39,324 nucleotides of DNA from an uncultured Planctomycetota bacterium (GTDB lineage Bacteria; Planctomycetota; Brocadiia; CAIUPP01), in the NCBI GenBank assembly GCA_903901045.1, contig CAIUPP010000039.1, positions 1-39,324 on the forward strand. The letters are read 5' to 3'. The notes under the pieces are model-generated. The model was not told where the DNA came from. It did not search any database and saw nothing but the letters and a program-made list of their open reading frames with translations. Position 1 is the first letter of the stretch. Each line of letters opens with the position of its first letter. Of the stretch, positions 17,957 to 18,083 are shown in pieces. The translations under genes were made by a program, and so were the position numbers.

Positions 17957-18083
17957 CGCCTGACTTGACGCCGCTGTCTCGTTAGGACATACTGTGGGCA
18001 ACAGTATGATTAGCCCCATCGGCCGGAAAGCATAACTTGTCATAAGCGCCCGTAGCTCAGCTGGATAGAGCGGCGGTTTCCTA
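17957..18083 (+). repeat. Left 127-bp direct repeat (candidate attachment site copy)
   Basis: It aligns without gaps to 35801-35927, offset 17,844. Positions 17957-18000 (44 bp) and 18036-18083 (48 bp) are identical in both copies. All 12 mismatches fall between 18001 and 18035. The repeat covers a promoter, a leader and the first half of a tRNA-Arg gene. Similarity ends abruptly inside the anticodon loop at TTTCCTA. Confidence 0.9.
18046..18083 (+). pseudogene. 5' half of tRNA-Arg(CCT), truncated in the anticodon loop
   Basis: It is identical to the first 38 bases of the complete tRNA-Arg at 35890: acceptor 5' strand, D-arm, anticodon 5' strand and CCT. After 18083 the sequence no longer pairs with the anticodon stem or the acceptor stem, so it cannot fold as a tRNA. 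Confidence 0.88.

Follow-up and report, generated by a model that had tools for sequence, protein, structure and literature searches.

In the Islander collection of genomic islands, 3,760 of 3,919 islands are accompanied by a 3′ fragment of the target tRNA gene (tDNA) and 159 by a 5′ fragment (PMC4383910). A recombinant tRNA that is expressed from the promoter of an inserted element is, according to a review of archaeal systems, seldom encountered in bacteria (PMC8371274). Archaeal integrases of the pTN3 type use the 5′ half of a tRNA gene, and integration detaches the gene from its original promoter (PMC5495485, PMC8371274). In the tRNA-dependent lysogeny of mycobacteriophages, a whole phage tRNA gene makes good a damaged host tRNA gene (PMC10865867). 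Given these precedents, the feature described herein is an uncommon but known kind of arrangement, a tRNA island with a 5′ fragment, that occurs without an integrase gene.

The window examined is an entire contig (C39; 39,324 bp) of a 4.77-Mb genome that comprises 154 contigs and is 94% complete. Two stretches on the + strand, 17957-18083 and 35801-35927, align over 127 bp without gaps and with 12 mismatches, located in the left copy at positions 18001, 18003, 18005, 18010, 18012, 18022, 18025, 18026, 18028, 18029, 18030, and 18035. The flanking blocks of 44 bp (5′ side) and 48 bp (3′ side) are free of differences, and the chance that all 12 mismatches fall within 35 of 127 positions is about 4e-8 by an arithmetic estimate that is uncorrected for the choice of stretch. 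The repeat and the confinement of its mismatches to 18001-18035, as claimed in the initial annotation, are therefore borne out by the gapless alignment. The annotation also described the identical blocks as a 44-bp promoter and a 48-bp tRNA half. Their identity stands, but the second block is not purely tRNA. Because the tRNA starts at 35890 in the right copy (ARAGORN), and hence at 18046 in the left, this block consists of the last 10 bp of the leader followed by tRNA nucleotides 1-38.

The left copy breaks off after nucleotide 38, directly past the anticodon, and the right copy continues into an intact tRNA-Arg(CCT) gene. The fragment at 18046-18083 thus lies upstream of the intact gene on the same strand, in agreement with the earlier statements that the duplicated part is a promoter plus 5′ half and that the join is at the anticodon loop. 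Neither a genome search nor alignment revealed a tRNA 3′ half downstream of 18083. Within the 4.77 Mb (94% complete) of this genome there is one full-length match to tRNA-Arg(CCT), with no second gene of this type and no third copy of the promoter-leader block. The features of the locus and of its parallels are listed in Table 1.

Table 1. Features of the tRNA-Arg(CCT) locus in the window, and integrase-bearing loci with the same orientation
Feature	Position	Strand	Remark
Left promoter block, presumed displaced promoter	17957-18000	+	Identical to 35801-35844
Left leader segment	18001-18035	+	All 12 differences; 23/35 identical
Last 10 bp of leader plus tRNA-Arg(CCT) nucleotides 1-38, displaced 5′ fragment	18036-18083	+	Identical to 35880-35927
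Presumed island cargo, ~17.7 kb, polysaccharide degradation	18084-35800		Without recombinase gene
PcRGLX-type lyase	18220-22488	-	
GntR/solute-binding regulator	22469-23851	+	
N-methylated DUF1559 protein	23938-25137	+	
678-aa protein without family assignment	25333-27369	+	
CBM9/GH123-like protein	27369-30911	+	
BNR/Vps10 repeat protein	30978-34022	+	
GH32/GH43-like protein	34175-35638	+	
Right promoter block, presumed to drive the intact tRNA gene now	35801-35844	+	
Right leader segment	35845-35879	+	12 differences from 18001-18035
Intact tRNA-Arg(CCT)	35890-35966	+	ARAGORN; only one found in genome
C138 5′ island, tRNA-Leu(TAG)	L079 (G000:C138:50000-69900), 8896-18553		
G241, G290: tRNA-Ser(CGA)			5′ orientation, displaced 5′ fragment
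G161: tRNA-Arg(CCT)			5′ orientation, displaced 5′ fragment
L172: tRNA-Leu(TAG)			5′ orientation, displaced 5′ fragment
L199: tRNA-Cys			5′ orientation, displaced 5′ fragment
L215: tRNA-Ser(TGA)			5′ orientation, displaced 5′ fragment

We consider it probable (roughly 80%) that the sequence at 17957-18083 is the displaced 5′ end of the tRNA-Arg(CCT) gene, split when a tyrosine recombinase inserted an element into the anticodon loop. The placement of the 5′ fragment upstream of the gene, its shared strand, and its end at the anticodon loop all favor this interpretation. From the sequence we infer a history in which an element carrying ~17.7 kb of polysaccharide-degradation genes would have entered the anticodon loop in the 5′ mode by means of a tyrosine recombinase. 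If its attachment site bore a promoter, leader, and tRNA 5′ half homologous to, but diverged from, those of the chromosome, then insertion would have rebuilt an intact gene on the right. This rebuilt gene (35801-35966) would join the 5′ part of the element, presumably including the right promoter, to the 3′ part of the chromosomal gene, and the old 5′ part (promoter, leader, and nucleotides 1-38) would have been shifted ~17.8 kb upstream, to 17957-18083. The integrase gene may since have been lost, in which case its expected place, by analogy with the island on contig C138 described below, is 35640-35800. Alternatively, the element may have been mobilized by an integrase acting in trans, which might come from another element such as the one on C138. 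Insertion in this mode would place a probably essential tRNA under the control of a mobile element, whose promoter and leader become those of the gene.

Several observations argue against this interpretation. No recombinase gene or remnant was found in the window by Pfam or by tblastn with the genome's own integrases, and tblastn with 65 members of the integrase family described below, together with an HMM, gave nothing in the window beyond chance matches and tRNA antisense. A repeated arm site was likewise not found in the window. In addition, the middle segment has a tetranucleotide composition typical of the genome, such that the block is not compositionally foreign, and the nearest parallel, G161, is rearranged. 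Searches with the element-end junction gave no match in viral contigs, and further copies of the element ends are absent from the genome. At 18154-18173, immediately internal to the island's left end, a tandem AATTCAGGCC/AATTCAGCCC resembles an arm site, and no counterpart was seen at the right end.

The left flank of the repeat is likewise a sugar-catabolism cluster. The contig ends 17.9 kb to the left of the fragment, so that this flank, too, may be an island. If it is an older one, then the copy at 17957-18083 is not necessarily the original chromosomal copy. Also to the left of the repeat, a GATase1-like frame in which the initial 74 positions of the profile are missing overlaps a CBM9 frame of the opposite strand (17100-17633 and 15998-17149), a sign of older rearrangement. 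For the glycosyltransferase of the right flank, no relatives were found among the genome contigs searched, and no synteny was found for the DUF5684 gene.

Both copies carry the promoter-like site TTGACG-N17-CATACT. In the left copy, for which 0.1 such sites are expected in shuffled sequences, TTGACG begins at 17965 and CATACT ends at 17993, and the shared block begins 8 bp ahead of the site. The only genome of the same family that was compared, G001, has the same hexamers at the same spacing upstream of its tRNA-Arg(CCT) gene. The hexamers and their spacing are thus kept there even though spacer and leader differ, which supports the promoter assignment in the window. The G001 leader aligns slightly better to the right leader (score -2.0) than to the left (-5.5), but the difference is too weak, and G001 too distant, to indicate which leader is native. 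RNA folding of the leaders gave no significant structure.

In the window, the 17-bp spacer is fully conserved between the copies, whereas the leader is 66% identical. It is possible that this reflects either recent recombination between the copies or constraint on the spacer. Outside this locus, the genome has one match to the promoter spacer, which falls within a glycoside-hydrolase-like reading frame and was dismissed as chance. A perfect 8-bp inverted repeat, CATACTGT-GGGCA-ACAGTATG, occupies 17988-18008 in the left copy only, where it overlaps the -10 hexamer, and CAGTATGA from this repeat recurs at 18197-18204. The inverted repeat could be an operator or could be due to chance.

Differences of the kind seen in the leader could also arise as strain variation, and the genome is a draft of 154 contigs that we take to be a metagenome assembly. 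The contig might be a mis-join of tRNA-Arg(CCT) loci from two strains that differ in the leader. We regard such an artefact as improbable, since the exact blocks shared by the copies measure just 44 and 48 bp, the end of the left copy coincides exactly with the anticodon loop, as in true islands of the 5′ class, and the composition of the intervening block matches the rest of the genome. The identity of the promoter and the tRNA half would also fit duplication of a native tRNA-Arg(CCT) gene, in tandem or otherwise, with later destruction of the 3′ half of one copy as unrelated genes accumulated between the two. We judge this even less probable, given that an ordinary single gene occupies the locus in G001 and in those class relatives that were checked, that the break falls exactly at the anticodon loop, and that integrase-bearing parallels exist, one of them in tRNA-Arg(CCT). 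When 58 class relatives were searched with the tRNA locus, all matches were to tRNAs. Finally, group I introns sit in the anticodon loop of some bacterial tRNA-Arg(CCU) genes, but it is scarcely credible that the left copy is such an intron-containing gene, because no 3′ half or 3′ exon follows 18083 and Rfam gave no match to a tRNA, a group I intron, or any other family in 17600-19200.

The displaced-fragment interpretation can be compared with the described systems. As in the 5′ islands of Islander, a 5′ tDNA fragment that reaches the gene end (nucleotide 1) and breaks at a known crossover subsite past the anticodon lies upstream of an intact tDNA in the same orientation. The length falls within the 2-200 kb range of that collection, and the rebuilt gene would use the 5′ part of the element. 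However, Islander requires an integrase gene between the fragment and the intact gene, and the window interval has none. Because neither an integrase nor a remnant is present, we describe the locus as an island without an integrase rather than as a complete Islander-type island. The pTN3-type elements resemble the window in using a tRNA 5′ half as the attachment site (41 bp are shared in pTN3) and in cutting off the rebuilt gene from its original promoter. In contrast, their integrase gene is split and no duplicated homologous tRNA promoter is described for them (PMC5495485, PMC8371274), whereas in the window the 5′ half is accompanied by a copy of a tRNA promoter and an integrase is absent. 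The mycobacteriophages of tRNA-dependent lysogeny likewise repair damage to a host tRNA gene, but there a complete phage gene compensates and the target is not rebuilt, while in the window the target would be rebuilt at the junction.

Integrase-bearing parallels do exist, beginning with the same genome. The surroundings of each of its tyrosine-integrase genes were inspected for tRNA fragments, which revealed an integrase-bearing 5′ island in the tRNA-Leu(TAG) gene of contig C138, with nucleotides 1-40 repeated 9.6 kb upstream. Its two copies are identical over the -10 region and onward to the end of the 5′ half; in the spacer and the -35 region they are similar but diverged. The integrase frame lies directly upstream of the intact tRNA-Leu(TAG) gene and remains open through its promoter into the tRNA. 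Repeats of AACTGTACCGGA occur inside both ends of the element, where they are placed as expected for integrase arm sites. The cargo of this island includes a Type ISP restriction-modification-like gene.

Relatives of the C138 integrase (E<=1e-60) are present in 48 of 392 genomes of the phylum. A profile search added 80 named loci, all but a few from Planctomycetota, and removal of duplicates left 130 distinct integrases. When a tRNA neighbor was defined as the nearest tRNA lying no more than 450 bp from where the match ends on its C-terminal side, the integrase C-terminus adjoined a tRNA in 103 of these loci. The tRNA is convergent with the integrase in 89 (3′ mode) and points in the same direction in 14 (5′ mode). 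Where fragments are clear, those of the 3′ mode run from about nucleotide 24-32 towards the 3′ end and those of the 5′ mode from nucleotide 1 to nucleotide 39-46, such that the two kinds overlap in the anticodon stem-loop. The displaced fragments are consistent with the mode assigned from integrase and tRNA orientation. Displaced 5′ fragments are present in C138, G241, G290, G161, L172, L199, and L215, and the other 7 of the 14 5′-mode loci have none in the DNA examined. The suggestion that promoter-bearing replacement of a 5′ half is a real, uncommon mode is upheld by these integrase-bearing cases in the genome and the phylum, along with the 159 of 3,919 Islander examples. Among open-licence papers, we found none on this Planctomycetota family or on its mixed orientation.

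The C138, G161, L172, and L215 loci resemble the window in their anticodon-loop join, in their displaced 5′ half (to nucleotide 38 in the window, and to nucleotide 39-46 in the family), and in the homologous promoter at both copies. They differ from it in having an integrase beside the intact gene, with its C-terminus abutting the tRNA. The integrase-bearing 5′ islands of Planctomycetota for which the fragment is placed span about 6-10 kb, compared with 17.8 kb in the window. G161 (island at G161:C75 27826-36958) is the closest parallel: it involves the same tRNA-Arg(CCT) and has a homologous promoter at the displaced 5′ half. Its integrase lies 234 bp from the tRNA-Arg(CCT) gene, and its 5′ fragment is inverted relative to the intact gene and lies on the other side of that gene. 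This arrangement would be explained by a single later inversion that broke within the element.

Divergence restricted to the leader, which the initial annotation had stressed, does not hold as a rule. As in the window, the intact and displaced copies of G161, L172, and L215 have homologous, partly diverged promoters. However, the differences fall in the spacer and the -35 region in C138, in the spacer and leader in G161, mainly upstream of the promoter in L172, and in the spacer and start-proximal leader in L215. The upstream regions of the two copies are unrelated in G290 and L199, and those of G241 are partly similar because sequence from the integrase end recurs at the fragment. Most cases fit a homologous promoter acquired from a related host, followed by drift under selection on the promoter and tRNA. 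Other cases seem to rely on a promoter specific to the element.

The two orientations are interspersed across the tree of the 103 tRNA-adjoining integrases. The 14 5′-mode members need 13 changes, which is no fewer than with shuffled labels (mean 13.3 changes; 243 of 500 shuffles are as low as observed). One Planctomycetota MAG carries both L172 (tRNA-Leu, 5′ mode) and L173 (tRNA-Met, 3′ mode), whose integrases are 82% identical. Read most simply, these data suggest that an attachment site can match the near-symmetric anticodon stem-loop in either orientation. Repeated switching between tRNA halves would imply that the mode is set by the attachment site rather than by integrase lineage. We would give even odds to a joint interpretation in which one Planctomycetota tyrosine integrase family enters the anticodon loop either way and its members have repeatedly exchanged the 3′ half for the promoter with the 5′ half, or the reverse, as dictated by the attachment site. 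The window island would then be a cargo-only member, and the one tRNA-Arg(CCT) gene detected in the genome would be driven by a promoter that the element brought. In place of a single oddity, the survey provides a comparative set of 14 5′-orientation beside 89 3′-orientation integrases in one family, and thereby makes it testable how integrases choose a tRNA half and whether replaced promoters alter tRNA expression.

The ordinary 3′ mode is also represented in the genome that carries the window. On contig C111, nucleotides 29-77 of a tRNA-Met gene are repeated in association with a related integrase. Together with the 5′ mode on C138, this means that both tRNA halves are used by a single integrase family within a single genome. 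The C111 tRNA-Met pieces at 4463-4539 and 14637-14685 of L075 (G000:C111:8000-27900) apparently belong to tandem 3′-mode islands. Their two integrases are 88% identical, belong to the same family as that of C138, and have C-termini that run antisense into the tRNA. Further tRNA-Met sequences, a gene on C99 (L083 8514-8590) and a 19-bp 3′ fragment on C1 (L084 4076-4094), each adjoin related integrases that are 71% identical, which suggests that these pieces are another island split between contigs.
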